NCBI RefSeq assembly: GCF_013408985.1
Contig: NZ_JACBZT010000001.1
Span: 1,178,001 to 1,242,000 of the forward strand
Direction of reading: 5' to 3'
From: Petropleomorpha daqingensis
GTDB lineage: Bacteria; Actinomycetota; Actinomycetes; Mycobacteriales; Geodermatophilaceae
Length of the DNA: 64,000 nt
Shown: positions 12,851 through 18,712 of the stretch, one piece after another
How positions within the stretch are numbered: position 1 is the stretch's first letter
Layout of the letters: each line of letters starts with the position of its first letter
Notes under the pieces: model-generated
Seen by the model: the letters and a program-made list of their open reading frames with translations, nothing else
Database searches by the model: none
What the model was told of the DNA's origin: nothing
Translations under genes and position numbers: made by a program

Positions 12851-13984
12851 GTGGCCAGGCACCTCACCCTCGTGCCCGCGCCCGGCCGCTCCGAGGACGC
12901 CGTCCTGTCCGATGTGGAGCCCGCCGTGCGCGCCTGCCTGGCCGGTACGGCGCCGCTCGCCGTCCTGCCCGCGGGTGCGCCGGCCGCTGTCGAGGCCGCC
13001 CACGCCGTCCTCCGCCCCGACGAGCCGCTCGAGGACGGCGCCGACCTCGTCGTCGTGACCTCGGGCTCGACCGGCACCGGCCGGGGCGTGCTGCTGCCGG
13101 CCTCCGCGCTCACCGCCTCCGCCACCGCCACCCACGACCGGCTCGGCGGCCCCGGGTCCTGGCTGCTCGCGCTGCCCGCCTCGGCGATCGCCGGTCTGCA
13201 GGTGCTCTGCCGCGGGGTGGTCGCCGGTCACCGTCCGACCGTGCTGGGCGAGGACGAGCGGCTGGCCGACGCGGTCGAGCGCATGCCGGCCGGGCGGCGG
13301 TACACCGCGCTCGTGCCGACCCAGCTGCGCCGCTACCTCGACGCCGAGCCGGTGGCGCTATCCGCGTTCGACGCGGTCCTGGTCGGCGGCGCGGCGACCG
13401 ACCCGGCGCTGCTCGACCGGGCGCGCGACGCGGGGGTCGCGGTGGCCACGACCTACGGCATGACCGAGACCGCCGGGGGCTGCGTCTACGACGGGGTGCC
13501 GCTGGACGGCGTCCGCGTGCGGGTGGCCGACGGCGTCGAGATCGCCGGGCCGACGCTCGCCCTCGGCTACCGGCTCGACCCCGAGGGGACGGCCGTGGCG
13601 TTCGCCGACGGCTGGTTCCGCACCCGCGACGCCGGCTCGATCGACCACGAGGGCCGGCTGACCGTGCACGGCCGGCTGGACGACGTCCTCATCAGCGGCG
13701 GGGTGAACGTGGCGCCCCAGGCCGTGGAGGCGGCGCTGCGCGAGCACGCCGACGTGGCCGACGCGGTCGTCTTCGGCCGGCCCGACGAGGAGTGGGGGCA
13801 GCGCGTCGTGGCCGCCGTCGTCCCGGCGCCCGGCGCGCAGCCGGCGCTGGCGGACCTGCGGCCGTGGGTGACCGACCGGCTGGGAGCCCCTGCCGCACCG
13901 AAGGAGCTGCACCTGATCGCCGCCGTCCCGACCCTGCACACGGGCAAGCCCGACCGCCGCGGTGTCGCGGAGGGATTGCGCTGA
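12851..13984 (+). CDS. menE: o-Succinylbenzoate-CoA ligase
   Basis: A short AMP-binding (ANL) enzyme of 377 aa that activates o-succinylbenzoate. The P-loop-like VVVTSGSTGTGRGVLL, the ATTYGMTETAGGCVYDG adenylate motif and the hinge GRLDDVLISGGVNVAPQAVE are present, and the C-terminal Lys is in TGKPDRRGV. The missing N-terminal part compared with other ligases is typical of actinobacterial MenE. Its stop overlaps the menA ATG (ATGA). Confidence 0.93.
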   Translation: MARHLTLVPAPGRSEDAVLSDVEPAVRACLAGTAPLAVLPAGAPAAVEAAHAVLRPDEPLEDGADLVVVTSGSTGTGRGVLLPASALTASATATHDRLGGPGSWLLALPASAIAGLQVLCRGVVAGHRPTVLGEDERLADAVERMPAGRRYTALVPTQLRRYLDAEPVALSAFDAVLVGGAATDPALLDRARDAGVAVATTYGMTETAGGCVYDGVPLDGVRVRVADGVEIAGPTLALGYRLDPEGTAVAFADGWFRTRDAGSIDHEGRLTVHGRLDDVLISGGVNVAPQAVEAALREHADVADAVVFGRPDEEWGQRVVAAVVPAPGAQPALADLRPWVTDRLGAPAAPKELHLIAAVPTLHTGKPDRRGVAEGLR

Positions 13985-14856
13985 TGGCCACGCCCGCGCA
14001 GTGGGTGGCCGGCGCCCGGGTGCGCACGCTGCCGGCCGCCGTCGCCCCGGTGTTCGTCGGCACCGGCGTCGCCGCGGGGCTCGACGGGTTCCGGCTCGTA
14101 CCGGCGCTGCTGGCGCTGGTCGTCGCGCTGGCCCTGCAGATCGCGGTGAACTACGCCAACGACTACTCCGACGGCATCCGCGGCACCGACGCCGACCGCG
14201 TCGGGCCGATGCGGCTGGTGGGCTCGGGGGCGGCGACGCCGCGGCAGGTGCTCACGGCCACGGTGCTCGCGTTCGCCGTCGCCGCCGTCGCCGGGCTCGT
14301 GCTCGCCGCGATGTCGAGCTGGTGGCTGCTCGCCGTGGGGGCCGCCTGCATCGTCGCGGCGTGGACCTACACCGGCGGCCCGATCCCCTACGGCTACCGG
14401 GCGCTCGGCGAGATCTTCGTCTTCGTCTTCTTCGGTCTGGTCGCCGTCGTGGGGACGACGTTCGTCCAGACGCAGTCGGTGGAGCGGCTGGCGTTCGCCT
14501 GCGCCGTCCCGGTCGGGCTGCTCATCGTGGCGATCCTGGTGGCCAACAACCTGCGGGACATCCCGGGCGACGCCGCCGTCGGCAAGCGCACGCTCGCCGT
14601 CGTCCTGGGCGACCGCGCCACCCGTGTGGGTTACATCGCACTCCTCGTCGGGGCATTCATTGCGATCATGGGGATCGGACTGGTGCGGCCCTGGGCGCTG
14701 CTCGGGCTCGTCGCGGCGCCGCTCGCCGTACCACCCGGTCGCATCGTCCTGGGCGGCGGCCGGGGCCCCGAGCTCATCGCCGTGCTGCAGGGGACCGGGC
14801 TGCTGACCCTGCTCACAGGGGTGATGCTCGGTATCGGAACAGCCCTCAGCGGCTGA
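13984..14856 (+). CDS. menA: 1,4-Dihydroxy-2-naphthoate polyprenyltransferase
   Basis: A UbiA-family membrane prenyltransferase, 290 aa with about eight or nine hydrophobic segments. It attaches the isoprenoid tail to dihydroxynaphthoate. The first Asp-rich motif NYANDYSDGIRGTD (about residues 56-69) and the second, NNLRDIPGDAAVGKRTLA (about 182-199), are clear. Coupled to menE by a 4-nt overlap. Confidence 0.95.
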   Translation: MATPAQWVAGARVRTLPAAVAPVFVGTGVAAGLDGFRLVPALLALVVALALQIAVNYANDYSDGIRGTDADRVGPMRLVGSGAATPRQVLTATVLAFAVAAVAGLVLAAMSSWWLLAVGAACIVAAWTYTGGPIPYGYRALGEIFVFVFFGLVAVVGTTFVQTQSVERLAFACAVPVGLLIVAILVANNLRDIPGDAAVGKRTLAVVLGDRATRVGYIALLVGAFIAIMGIGLVRPWALLGLVAAPLAVPPGRIVLGGGRGPELIAVLQGTGLLTLLTGVMLGIGTALSG

Positions 14857-14875: not shown

Positions 14876-14915
14876 CCCGCTGCCCGTCGCTGCACGGACG
14901 TAGGACGGCAGCGGG
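14876..14915 (+). promoter_or_regulatory. Leader hairpin touching the ribosome binding site of the downstream fusion gene
   Basis: CCCGCTGCC (14876-14884) pairs with GGCAGCGGG (14907-14915), and GTC/GAC extends the stem after a one-base bulge. The right arm runs straight into GGGGAGGG, the ribosome binding site of the gene at 14930. It could be a terminator remnant for menE-menA or a translational control element. Confidence 0.4.
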
Positions 14916-14929
14916 GAGGGAGACCCACG

Positions 14930-17410
14930 GTGGCAACCACGGAGGAACTGCTCAACGCGGTCGACGAGGTCGTGTCCGACGGAGTGCGGCGCGGACTGCT
15001 GCACAACGTCGTCGAGGACACCGCCCTGGACGGTCGGCACGTCACGATCGACGGCCGCCGCATGGTGAACTTCGGCTCCTGCTCCTACCTCGGGCTGGAG
15101 ATGCACCCCGCGCTCAAGGCCGGCGTGCACGACGCGGTCGACCGCTTCGGCACCCAGTTCTCCTCGTCCCGCGTCTACGCCGCTGCGCCCCTCTACCGCG
15201 AGGTCGAGGAGACGCTGTCCCGGCTGTTCGGGCGCGGCGCCATCGTCACCCCCTCGACGTCCATGGGGCACATCGCCACGATGCCGACGCTGATCGGCGA
15301 CCGCGACGTCCTGGTCATGGACCACCAGGTCCACCACTCCGTGCAGACGGCGGCGAAGCTGGTCCAGTCCGGCGGCGCGCGCGTCGAGCTCATCCCGCAC
15401 GGCGACCTGAGGACGCTCGAGAAGCGGCTGGAGAGCTACAAGCGCACGCACCGGCGGGTCTGGTTCGCCGCCGACGGGCTGTACTCCATGTACGCCGACC
15501 TGCTGCCCACCGAGGAGCTCGACGAGCTCGCCGCGCGGCACGACAACCTGTGGCTCTACATCGACGACGCGCACGCCGTCTCGTGGACCGGCCGGCACGG
15601 CCGCGGCCACGCGCTGGAGCACCTCGCCCCCGCGACGCTCGCCCGGACCGTCGTCGCCGCGTCGCTGAACAAGTCCTTCGCCGCCTCGGGCGGTGCGATG
15701 ACCTTCCCCGACGAGGAGACCCGCGGCCGGGTGCTCCGGGTCGGCGCCCCGCTGATCTTCTCCGGGCCGGTGCAGCCGCCGATGCTGGGCGCGATCCTCG
15801 CCTCCGCGCGGCTGCATATGACGCCCGAGATCGCCGAGCGCCAGGATCTGCTGCTCGACCGGATCCGGCTGTTCAACAAGCTGGCCGCCGAGGCGGAGCT
15901 GCCGGTGGTCTCGGAGTCCGAGACGCCGATCCGCTGCGTCGGCGCCGGGGTGTCCTCGGTCGCCTACCGGCTGGTGGAGCGGCTGCGCTCGGCCGGGTAC
16001 CACGTCAACACCGCCTCGTTCCCCGCCGTCCCGGCCAAGCGCAGCGGTGCGCGCATCACGATCACGGCGCACCACACCGAGGACGACGTCGCTGGCCTGG
16101 TGAGCGCGCTCGCCGAGCACCTGCCGGCCGCGATCACCGACGAGGGCGCCTCGGTGGCCGACCTGCACCGCGCGTTCCACCGGCAGCTGCGCGGCCGCCA
16201 GGTGCTCGGTGCCGAGGAGGCGCCGTCGAAGCCGCGCCGGCCGGCCCTGCGGCTGGAGCACCACCGCTCGATCGCGACGATCGACGCCGGCGAGTGGGAC
16301 CGGCTGCTCGGCACCCGCGGCACGTTCACCGCCGCGGCGCTGCGCACCTTCGAGTCGGTGTTCGACCAGGGCGGCACCGGAGCCGCCGGCCAGACCGAGG
16401 ACGCCTGGGACTTCCACTACTGGATCGTCCGCGACCGCTCGGGCGTGCCCGTCGCCGCCACGTTCTTCACCACCGCGCTGTGGAAGGACGACATGCTCTC
16501 CTCGGCGGCGGTCAGCCGCGAGGTGGAGCGCCGCCGCACCGAGACGGCGGACAGCTACCTGCTGACGTCGTCCACGCTCGGGATGGGGTCGCTGCTCACC
16601 GAGGGCGACCACCTCTACCTCGACCGCTCGCGCGACTGGCGCGGGGCGCTGCGGATGATCCTGTCCGCGGCCCGGCACGAGGAGGACCTCGCCGGTGCCG
16701 GCGCGATCGTCCTGCGGGACCTGCCCGACGGGGACGACGAGATGCACGCGTTCCTGCTCGGCGAGGGGCTGATGCGCCTCCCGCTCTGGAACACCTGGGT
16801 GCGGCACGTCGGCTTCACCGACGACGAGGAGTTCCTGGCCGGGCTCACCCGCAAGCACCGGTACCACCAGCGGACCCGCGTCCTGGCCTGGGAGCCGCGG
16901 TACCAGGTGGACGTGCTGCCCGGCGGCAGTCGTGAGGCGCTCGCCCTGGACGACGCGACCCGCGACCGGCTGTACGAGCTGTACCGCAACGTGCACGCGC
17001 GCTCGTTCGAGCTCAACGTCTTCCCGCTGCCGCGCCGGGTCATCGATTCCGCGCTCGAGTCCCCGGCGTGGGAGATCGTGCTCCTGTCCCTGCCCGAGGT
17101 GTCGTCGTCGCCCGTGGCCTTCGCGGTGCAGCACGTCGTGCCCGGCGAGGACGGGCACGTCGCGCCGTTGTTCGTCGGGCTGGACTACGAGTACGTGCCG
17201 ACCCACCACAGCTACCAGCAGCTGCTCTTCCAGTCGGTGCGCAGCGCCCTGCGGCACGGCGCCCCGCGGATCCTGTACGGCATGAGCGCCGACCTGCACA
17301 AGGCGCGCTTCGGGGCGACGTCGGAGAAGCGGTGGGCCTACGTCCAGCCGACGGAGACCTTCAACGCCGACGTGCTGGCCCGGGTCGCGGAGAGCGTCGG
17401 CGTGAGCTGA
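14930..17410 (+). CDS. Alpha-oxoamine synthase / FemAB-like acyltransferase fusion
   Basis: An 826-aa two-part enzyme. Residues about 1-410 are a PLP-dependent alpha-oxoamine synthase (the family of serine palmitoyltransferase, KBL and BioF): NFGSCSYLGL, the STSMGHIA region, IDDAHAVSWTG (211-221) and the PLP lysine K248 in SLNKSFAASGG. Residues about 430-826 resemble GNAT/FemAB-type acyltransferases, ending in a typical ILYGMSADLHKARFGATSEK segment. A strong GGGGAGGG lies upstream of the GTG. The parts suggest decarboxylative condensation of an amino acid with an acyl-CoA, then N-acylation, as in ceramide-like lipids; this is inference. It stands alone, downstream of menA. Confidence 0.85.
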   Translation: MATTEELLNAVDEVVSDGVRRGLLHNVVEDTALDGRHVTIDGRRMVNFGSCSYLGLEMHPALKAGVHDAVDRFGTQFSSSRVYAAAPLYREVEETLSRLFGRGAIVTPSTSMGHIATMPTLIGDRDVLVMDHQVHHSVQTAAKLVQSGGARVELIPHGDLRTLEKRLESYKRTHRRVWFAADGLYSMYADLLPTEELDELAARHDNLWLYIDDAHAVSWTGRHGRGHALEHLAPATLARTVVAASLNKSFAASGGAMTFPDEETRGRVLRVGAPLIFSGPVQPPMLGAILASARLHMTPEIAERQDLLLDRIRLFNKLAAEAELPVVSESETPIRCVGAGVSSVAYRLVERLRSAGYHVNTASFPAVPAKRSGARITITAHHTEDDVAGLVSALAEHLPAAITDEGASVADLHRAFHRQLRGRQVLGAEEAPSKPRRPALRLEHHRSIATIDAGEWDRLLGTRGTFTAAALRTFESVFDQGGTGAAGQTEDAWDFHYWIVRDRSGVPVAATFFTTALWKDDMLSSAAVSREVERRRTETADSYLLTSSTLGMGSLLTEGDHLYLDRSRDWRGALRMILSAARHEEDLAGAGAIVLRDLPDGDDEMHAFLLGEGLMRLPLWNTWVRHVGFTDDEEFLAGLTRKHRYHQRTRVLAWEPRYQVDVLPGGSREALALDDATRDRLYELYRNVHARSFELNVFPLPRRVIDSALESPAWEIVLLSLPEVSSSPVAFAVQHVVPGEDGHVAPLFVGLDYEYVPTHHSYQQLLFQSVRSALRHGAPRILYGMSADLHKARFGATSEKRWAYVQPTETFNADVLARVAESVGVS

Positions 17411-17509: not shown

Positions 17510-18712
17510 ATGTCCTCCGACCACCTCCACGCGCTGAGCGGCCCTGAGCTGCTCGACCGCACGCGTGATCTCGTCGAGGCGGTCAACCGGGCGCAGGCCG
17601 AGCTGGCGCGCACCGTCCGCGTCGCGGACTCCAAGCGGGCGTTCGCCGGCGACGGGCAGAAGACGGCGCAGTCGTGGCTGCGCGGGCACGGCCGGCTGTC
17701 GAAGGCCGCGGCCTCGCAGGTGGTGCGCAACGGCCGCGCGCTCGAGCAGCTCCCGGACGTGGAGGAGGCCCACGCCGCCGGGCGCCTGACCGCCGATCAG
17801 GTCGAGGTGATCGCGCAGATCACCGCGCCGAAGTACGCCCGGCTGATCACCGCCCAGGGCGGCAGCGTCGCGGCGGTCGGGCAGGTGCTCGGCCGGTTCG
17901 CCGTCGACCGGCCGCACGCGGACCTGACCGAGCTGGTGCACCAGGTGCTGCAACGCCTCGATCAGGACGGCCCGGAACCCGATCCCACCGAGGAGCGGTT
18001 CCTGACCCTCGTCACGCACGCCGACGGCAGCGTCACCGGCCGCTTCCACCTCGATCCGCTCGGCGCGCAGAAGGTCCAGGCCGCGCTGGAGGCCCACCGG
18101 CAGGCCGACCGGCCCGCCGGTGACCAGCGCACCCTCGCCCAGCAGCAGGCCGACGCGCTGGTCCAGTGGGCCGACAACACCCTGGCCGCCGGCACCGCCC
18201 CCCTGCTGCGCCGCACCCGCCCGCAGGTCGCGGTGAAGATCGGCTCGGAGGACCTCGCCGACCCGGGCACCGGCAGAGGCGCCGCGACCCTCGGCTTCGG
18301 CGGCGTCGTCTCCGCCGCGAAAGCCCGGCAGGTCGCCTGCGACGCCGAACTGCGCCGCTACCTCATCGCCCCCGACGGCGAACTCTTGGATCTGGGCCGC
18401 AGTCAACGTCTGGCCACCCCGGCTCTACGAAAAGCCGTCGAACTACGCGACGAGGCCTGCGTCTTCGCCGGCTGCGACGGACCGGCCTGGTGGTGCGACG
18501 TCCATCATGTGGTGCATTGGCTCTTCGGCGGCGAAACCAGCCTGGACAACTCCGCGCTGCTCTGCGAACGCCACCACACCCAGGTCCACCACGGCTTCAC
18601 GATCCAGCGAGATCCCGCCGGGCGATGGCACACCTACCGACCCGACGGCACCGAGATCCTCACCATCCGACCCGAGCCCACCGATGCCGAAGAGCTCAGC
18701 CGAGCGGGCTGA
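17510..18712 (+). CDS. DUF222 / HNH endonuclease (13E12 repeat family type)
   Basis: A 400-aa protein with an N-terminal helical DUF222 domain (about residues 5-300) and a C-terminal HNH nuclease of the CxxxxC...HH type: CVFAGCDGPAWWCDVHHVVHW and then LCERHHTQVHH. Such proteins occur in many copies in actinobacterial genomes and are related to the mycobacterial REP13E12 family; their function is unclear and they may be mobile. The last third uses more A/T-ending codons than its neighbours (for example CTACGAAAAGCC near 18425), hinting at a different history. No flanking repeat is seen. Confidence 0.85.
   Translation: MSSDHLHALSGPELLDRTRDLVEAVNRAQAELARTVRVADSKRAFAGDGQKTAQSWLRGHGRLSKAAASQVVRNGRALEQLPDVEEAHAAGRLTADQVEVIAQITAPKYARLITAQGGSVAAVGQVLGRFAVDRPHADLTELVHQVLQRLDQDGPEPDPTEERFLTLVTHADGSVTGRFHLDPLGAQKVQAALEAHRQADRPAGDQRTLAQQQADALVQWADNTLAAGTAPLLRRTRPQVAVKIGSEDLADPGTGRGAATLGFGGVVSAAKARQVACDAELRRYLIAPDGELLDLGRSQRLATPALRKAVELRDEACVFAGCDGPAWWCDVHHVVHWLFGGETSLDNSALLCERHHTQVHHGFTIQRDPAGRWHTYRPDGTEILTIRPEPTDAEELSRAG

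Follow-up and report, generated by a model that had tools for sequence, protein, structure and literature searches.

In this study, we have examined a stretch of 64,000 nucleotides from the actinobacterium Petropleomorpha daqingensis (contig NZ_JACBZT010000001.1, positions 1,178,001 to 1,242,000 of the forward strand; hereafter the window), in which a single gene joins an alpha-oxoamine synthase domain to a FemX-like tandem GNAT domain (Table 1). The reading frame runs from a GTG start to a stop codon whose positions are those given by an initial annotation made from the DNA letters. That annotation had also read the N-terminal part as an alpha-oxoamine synthase with an intact pyridoxal phosphate (PLP) lysine, and this holds: the Pfam class I/II aminotransferase family (Aminotran_1_2) matches with an E value of 1.1e-24, and H135, D212, D213, H215, K248 and R375 are identical in all 41 fusions of at least 750 amino acids (aa), the window's own included. 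By analogy with BioF and serine palmitoyltransferase (SPT), these six residues are assigned to the PLP site and the carboxylate site. The aminotransferase class I/II domain, together with K248, H135, D212, D213 and H215, places the protein in the broad alpha-oxoamine synthase (fold type I PLP) family. The conservation extends into the C-terminal part, in which W456, D521, S529, R536, G553, G559, R596, Y685, G750 and Y762 are identical in 41/41 of these fusions and K791 is kept in 40. Since the whole chain is conserved at 39-73% identity in two phyla, the fused reading frame is real, and chance or misassembly is excluded.

Table 1. Features of the fusion locus, in window positions (strand as read in the window)
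Feature	Position	Strand	Remark
Fusion gene, alpha-oxoamine synthase + FemX-like tandem GNAT domain	14930..17410	+	826 aa plus stop
G-rich stretch resembling a ribosome-binding site, AGCGGGGAGGGAG	14910..14922	+	seven bases before the GTG; by eye
Alpha-oxoamine synthase domain, residues about 34-396	15029..16117	+	Pfam 44-394; bioF 34-394; PRK07505 38-398
Codon of PLP lysine K248 (SLNKSF)	15671..15673	+	same in 41/41 relatives of at least 750 aa
Linker, residues about 397-429	16118..16216	+	length varies among relatives; alignment
FemX/tandem-GNAT-like acyltransferase domain, residues 430-826	16217..17407	+	AlphaFold2, fold searches, PF13480 in relatives
UbiA-type prenyltransferase gene (menA is a context-based label)	13984..14856	+	PF01040 1.5e-33; directly upstream of the fusion
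DUF222 gene	17510..18712	+	downstream of the fusion

Residues 430-826 of the window protein matched no family in Pfam or NCBIfam, and a profile of this domain searched against the sequences of solved structures returned nothing related (best E 0.82, to an unrelated protein). Among its relatives, PF13480 (Acetyltransf_6) is found in 32 of the 37 C-terminal domains of the fusion family and PF04339 (FemAB_like) in six. Structure prediction and fold search, the check that had been proposed for the suspected FemAB/GNAT-type domain, returned a GNAT tandem fold and so bear out that suspicion. The AlphaFold2 model, built from seven sequences, has a mean pLDDT of 88.7 and a pTM of 0.87. Its top Foldseek match is 2wpw (E 1.7e-9), the first matches being tandem GNAT proteins and MprF-type domains. 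With VIA-align, the model scores Z 22.2 against FemX 6snr (root-mean-square deviation 4.4 A over 302 aligned residues) and Z 22.1 against Sbb17 9wqw (2.8 A over 275), followed by Sba18 (21.7), FemA (21.1), MprF (18.2) and N-myristoyltransferase (17.0); the scores for FemX, Sbb17 and Sba18 are ties. As modelled, then, the domain is a FemX-like tandem GNAT fold, and this resemblance does not fix which acyl or aminoacyl donor it would use. What sets the fusion apart from FemX/FemAB, Sbb17/Sba18 and the other tandem GNAT transferases is its joining to an oxoamine synthase and the lack of a significant sequence match to a solved structure.

The synthase domain is less easily named. Among the NCBIfam models, it scores highest with PRK07505, an unnamed subfamily (272 bits, below the cut-off of 342), followed by bioF (177.6 bits against 426). 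The label "serine palmitoyltransferase-like" given to it initially is not supported, as the three NCBIfam SPT equivalogs score 137.1 (NF047600, cut-off 640), 132.1 (NF047599, cut-off 500) and 106.6 bits (NF047603, cut-off 670). The models for BioF, glycine C-acetyltransferase and 5-aminolevulinate synthase likewise fall short of their cut-offs (bioF as above; PRK06939, 131.9 against 460; ALAS, 89 against 339), as does that of the CqsA/LqsA autoinducer synthases (NF005526, 61.5 against 428). Six Myxococcota synthases that have no fused domain were scanned in case they named the family, and PRK07505 was again the best model (245-268 bits against 342). The fusion is a new variant within the oxoamine synthase family, and its possible link to sensing can be tested. 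A search of the open-access literature with a few terms returned no description of it, which does not show its absence from print.

A first scan of genomes gave six loci (L numbers are our handles for loci, G numbers for genomes): one in Geodermatophilus sp. DSM 45219, with 73% identity to the window protein, two in Blastococcus metagenome-assembled genomes (MAGs; 72% and, for a cut copy, 65%) and three in Myxococcota MAGs (39-44%). Relatives within the same family are 67-73% identical to the window protein. The whole chain was found in only 2/59 relatives, and the C-terminal domain query matched 3/394 genomes of the class and 6/397 of the order, the window's own being included in each count. 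By comparison, 41 of 377 Myxococcota genomes match; the fusion is thus rare in the order of its host and commoner in Myxococcota, and the Gram-positive setting, which had been put forward as a defining feature, does not define it, since most of the copies found are in Myxococcota. We found 46 places in this phylum and examined 44 of them (G480:C17 and G663:C24, both synthase-only, were not fetched; L122 is not counted among the loci). They comprise 35 fusions of at least 750 aa in 33 genomes, two shorter ones of 628 and 489 aa that lie at the edges of their contigs, and seven copies with the synthase only. In L104, the synthase and the C-terminal domain are separate adjoining genes. Of nine genomes searched for a C-terminal domain, G656, G663 and G739 carry one; in the six whose only copy is synthase-only (G779, G517, G667, G786, G737 and G480), none was found elsewhere. 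In a tree of synthase domains, the six actinobacterial copies form one group (100/100) beside two synthase-only Myxococcota copies (96/87). This tree does not include L033 and L100 and contains only 4 of the 12 outgroup rows intended for it, among them L003, which sits within the family on a very long branch.

The neighbours of these relatives offer insights into what the fusion may do. Among the 93 genes that directly adjoin the synthase, 21 encode kinases, as against 2 among the 317 that lie at least three places away (Fisher 7e-13, kinship ignored), that is 17/80 versus 0/270 in Myxococcota and 4/13 versus 2/47 in actinobacteria. This count covers 51 loci (44 from Myxococcota and seven from actinobacteria), L123-L125 having been found later. 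The first kinase model, trained on kinases of the same loci, had given 21/93 versus 1/317; the model rebuilt from 14 unlinked kinases (16 regions fetched, two unusable) recovers the same 21/93. By way of comparison, the number of HisKA domains per genome is 53-86 in four of these Myxococcota, for a genome size of about 8 megabases. In L031, L032 and L034, a hybrid histidine kinase (HisKA, HATPase, receiver) is encoded one or two genes away from the fusion, and the three kinases share an N-terminal domain at 37-42% identity. A search with these three sequences found one copy of this sensor domain in each of the three genomes; six actinobacterial genomes gave no copy. Altogether, the sensor domain adjoins the synthase in 21/44 Myxococcota loci and in 18 of the 35 fusions of at least 750 aa (in L034 it is next but one, behind a weakly methyltransferase-like gene). 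Its gene lies downstream on the same strand in seven cases, upstream and divergent in eight, and upstream on the same strand in six; the pairing observed in these relatives has been kept through repeated rearrangement, which argues for a functional link. With a profile built from the synthase-adjacent copies, the sensor domain was detected in 28 of 41 Myxococcota genomes with a synthase versus 71 of 336 without (Fisher 2e-9, kinship again ignored). We also observed that, over the 377 genomes, the 99 that carry this H-NOX/VirS-fold-like domain often have it in long open reading frames with little Pfam coverage. The domain is therefore a wider family, one part of which accompanies the synthase.

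The model of the sensor domain, from three sequences, has a pLDDT of 72.9 and a pTM of 0.71. It resembles H-NOX 6bde (Z 10.6, 3.6 A, 152 aligned residues) and the N-terminal domain of the AraC-type regulator VirS, 8rcw (Z 8.8, 4.2 A, 164 aligned), and more weakly TRAPP subunits. PF12625, the AraC N-terminal domain family, matches 3 of the 21 sensor-domain proteins (best 1e-6), while the sensor profile run against the sequences of solved structures picked up nothing but plant receptors, with E values no better than 0.012. Heme sensing, raised by the H-NOX-like fold, was considered and rejected: no alignment column holds a histidine in more than 8 of the 21 sequences, so that heme binding in the H-NOX style appears unlikely. 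Unlike H-NOX and VirS, the neighbouring sensor domain is without a conserved histidine and sits mostly on histidine kinases. By hydropathy, 20 of the 21 proteins as called are free of membrane segments, and the remaining one shows a weak segment at residue 421. The domain could be a cytosolic sensor of a lipophilic ligand.

Based on these results, we tentatively read the fusion as a synthase of N-acylated (or N-aminoacylated) alpha-aminoketones whose product is probably a signal, an account to which we give somewhat less than an even chance. The chemistry and the substrates that we propose are drawn from the family, the fold and the intact active site. The N-terminal domain would condense an amino acid with an acyl thioester into an alpha-amino ketone, with loss of CO2, and the FemX-like domain would place a second acyl or aminoacyl group on the new amine, giving a small lipophilic signal. 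In Myxococcota, this product may be the ligand of the soluble H-NOX/VirS-fold domain that the adjacent kinase carries; in several actinobacteria it may act through a kinase encoded next to the fusion. The precedent is the pairing of CqsA with CqsS and of LqsA with LqsS, which are named as pairs in the part of PMC3376566 that deals with autoinducer synthase and sensor genes, where such genes are described as usually adjoining. In the same part, CqsA is described as converting 2-aminobutyrate and decanoyl-CoA to 3-aminotridecan-4-one, and the CqsS/LqsS sensors as having six membrane helices. Like these systems, a number of relatives of the fusion place a PLP-dependent enzyme of the alpha-oxoamine synthase type next to a sensor histidine kinase; unlike them, the enzyme carries the extra acyltransferase domain, and the sensors linked to it in Myxococcota are soluble by hydropathy. 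It is plausible that the fusion works like CqsA, although by the NF005526 score it is not a member of that family.

A number of observations weigh against this reading. A kinase can regulate the gene of an enzyme without sensing the product of that enzyme. In Myxococcota, 17 of the 35 fusions of at least 750 aa have no adjacent sensor domain (for two of these, a neighbouring gene is available on just one side), 5 of the 21 sensor-domain neighbours give no kinase match (L075, L082, L093, L101 and L102), the domain occurs in the 71 synthase-free genomes counted above, a broader profile finds further, weaker copies in some synthase genomes (including a second in G449), and the sensor-domain model is only of middling confidence. 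In actinobacteria, the fusions of the window, L030, L109 and L123 lack an adjoining kinase gene. The pairing of the CqsA/LqsA type, common among the relatives, is thus absent at the window's locus, and the case for a signal, which comes mainly from Myxococcota, is for this reason weaker for the window itself. The genome of the window (G000) has only distant homologues of the kinases, the best-scoring matches reaching 36% and 37% identity; with no kinase at the locus and no close homologue found, the product may here have its receptor encoded elsewhere in the genome, or a different purpose altogether.

The actinobacterial kinases themselves are not one dedicated set. A divergently oriented kinase lies beside five of the nine actinobacterial fusions (L029, L108, L110, L124 and L125), and a second kinase is found at four (L029, L108, L124 and L125). 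Three of the divergent kinases were scanned by Pfam and all have PAS, HisKA and HATPase domains, two with GAF and two with a receiver; the second kinase of L029 has HisKA, HATPase, receiver and Hpt, and that of L108 is cut by the contig end. Between families, the first kinases are 48-54% identical over their aligned parts. A kinase pair similar to the fusion-linked one adjoins kdp-like genes in G120 and G135, and the L029 kinases are 61% and 56% identical to this pair versus 48-52% and 41-44% to the other fusion-linked kinases. The second L029 kinase groups with the kdp-side kinases (98/97), while the tree of first kinases, which is unrooted, does not separate the alternatives. We thus rejected the idea of a single dedicated kinase pair in actinobacteria, the L029 kinases being nearer to the kdp-side pair than to the other fusion-linked ones, and this finding slightly lowered our confidence in a signal and slightly raised that in a membrane lipid. 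When the actinobacterial fusions are placed in a tree, L029, which has the kinases beside it, groups with the copies that adjoin a prenyltransferase gene (100/99), and this blurs the history of the locus. As side observations, L142 and L143, the loci of the kinase pair in G120 and G135, adjoin genes resembling kdpA and kdpE (names read from sequence), and the first kinase of L142 has several membrane segments; L109 and its close relative L110 have in common a flanking glycosyl hydrolase/transferase-like gene, the divergent kinase being absent from the former and present in the latter.

The main competitor, which we regard as a real if rather doubtful possibility, is that the fusion makes a ceramide-like membrane lipid (an N-acyl 3-keto sphingoid or a 1-deoxy analogue) in one chain, the kinases timing its synthesis, for instance under stress. 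SPT and BioF are among the nearest families of the synthase domain, and ceramide-like chemistry, with an acyl group on the aminoketone nitrogen, is possible. In the portion of PMC11087976 on this route, Spt and then bCerS act in the cytoplasm before the ketone is reduced; the likeness lies in the proposed reactions, condensation followed by N-acylation, and the difference from the Spt, bCerS and CerR route is that the fusion would hold both steps in one chain and misses the SPT cut-offs. Further background on bacterial SPT and ceramide synthase is given in PMC11334938, PMC12134224 and PMC11324152, in whose relevant sections the family of bCerS is not settled. Some SPTs have a dedicated acyl carrier protein (ACP) and an acyl-ACP synthetase, according to the corresponding part of PMC9386255, and a protein with AMP-binding and PP-binding domains (an AMP-ligase-carrier protein, for which FAAL-ACP is our own label) is encoded directly downstream of the fusion in 5 of the 44 Myxococcota loci (L086, L087, L088, L094 and L099), all within one clade of six. 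This protein could also be a source of the acyl thioester for an aminoketone signal. Other metabolic neighbours are flavin oxidoreductases beside L090, L091 (homology by eye) and L097 and near L034, and, at L091:6850-8385, a gene for an aromatic amino acid lyase (PF00221, 3e-201) that comes immediately downstream of the fusion; these neighbours differ between clades, which is consistent with a varied product. Against a lipid stand the SPT cut-offs, all of them missed, the rare and patchy distribution, unlike that of a structural lipid, and the soluble sensor domain of a ligand-binding type of fold that recurs beside the gene. No ketone reductase recurred among the neighbours listed, a result obtained with no search aimed at such reductases, and one reductase-like gene follows L082. 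Because a sensor kinase recurs beside the relatives, we favour a signal over a ceramide. If the fusion is nevertheless a lipid enzyme, it would shorten the bacterial ceramide route, in which two enzymes act, to a single chain. As a separate observation on neighbouring genes, in L072 and L074 the fusion is followed by a gene of 144-146 aa and one of 242-266 aa, the second receiver-like by eye; no Pfam family matched the L072 pair.

An improbable alternative, based on analogy, is that the FemX-like domain uses aminoacyl-tRNA and yields an N-aminoacyl aminoketone that could cyclise to a dihydropyrazinone or pyrazinone, as for the autoinducer DPO, whose biosynthesis reportedly passes through N-alanyl-aminoacetone. 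The closest folds (FemX, Sbb17, Sba18, FemA and MprF) all outscore N-myristoyltransferase; we take the Fem and MprF folds to be users of aminoacyl-tRNA, and Sbb17 is one going by the title of its structure entry. However, the likeness of fold leaves the donor open, the top Foldseek matches being tandem GNAT proteins as well as MprF-type domains, and the AMP-ligase-carrier neighbours favour acyl donors in at least one clade, though they may feed the synthase domain instead.

Should the pairing be that of a synthase and its receptor, our results would add a further family of signals made by oxoamine synthases, together with a receptor domain that is soluble; both phyla concerned are rich in social behaviour and natural products. 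The broader claim, that N-acyl- or N-aminoacyl-alpha-aminoketones (the latter possibly closing to pyrazinones) form a new class of bacterial signals made by one fused synthase and read by cytosolic histidine kinases with a heme-free H-NOX/VirS-fold sensor in Myxococcota and by other kinases in Actinomycetota, is more speculative, and we think it rather less likely than the signal reading itself; its odds were also slightly lowered because the actinobacterial kinases are not one dedicated set. The enzyme half and the sensor half can each be tested separately.

Least probable, in our view, is that the window's gene encodes a metabolic enzyme without any signalling role, a stray copy that is used weakly and is linked to a menaquinone-type cluster by chance or for co-expression: its position behind the UbiA prenyltransferase gene, in the window as in L030 and L123, and the lack of a close homologue of the kinase pair in G000 would fit, but the chain and its active-site residues are intact at the identity noted above for same-family relatives. 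In these three loci, the order is UbiA prenyltransferase gene, fusion, DUF4229-type gene and AsnC-type gene (in L030 and L123, the labels other than prenyltransferase were assigned by eye). The DUF222 gene of the window lies between the fusion and the DUF4229-type gene and, as it is missing from L030 and L123, has probably been inserted and is unrelated.

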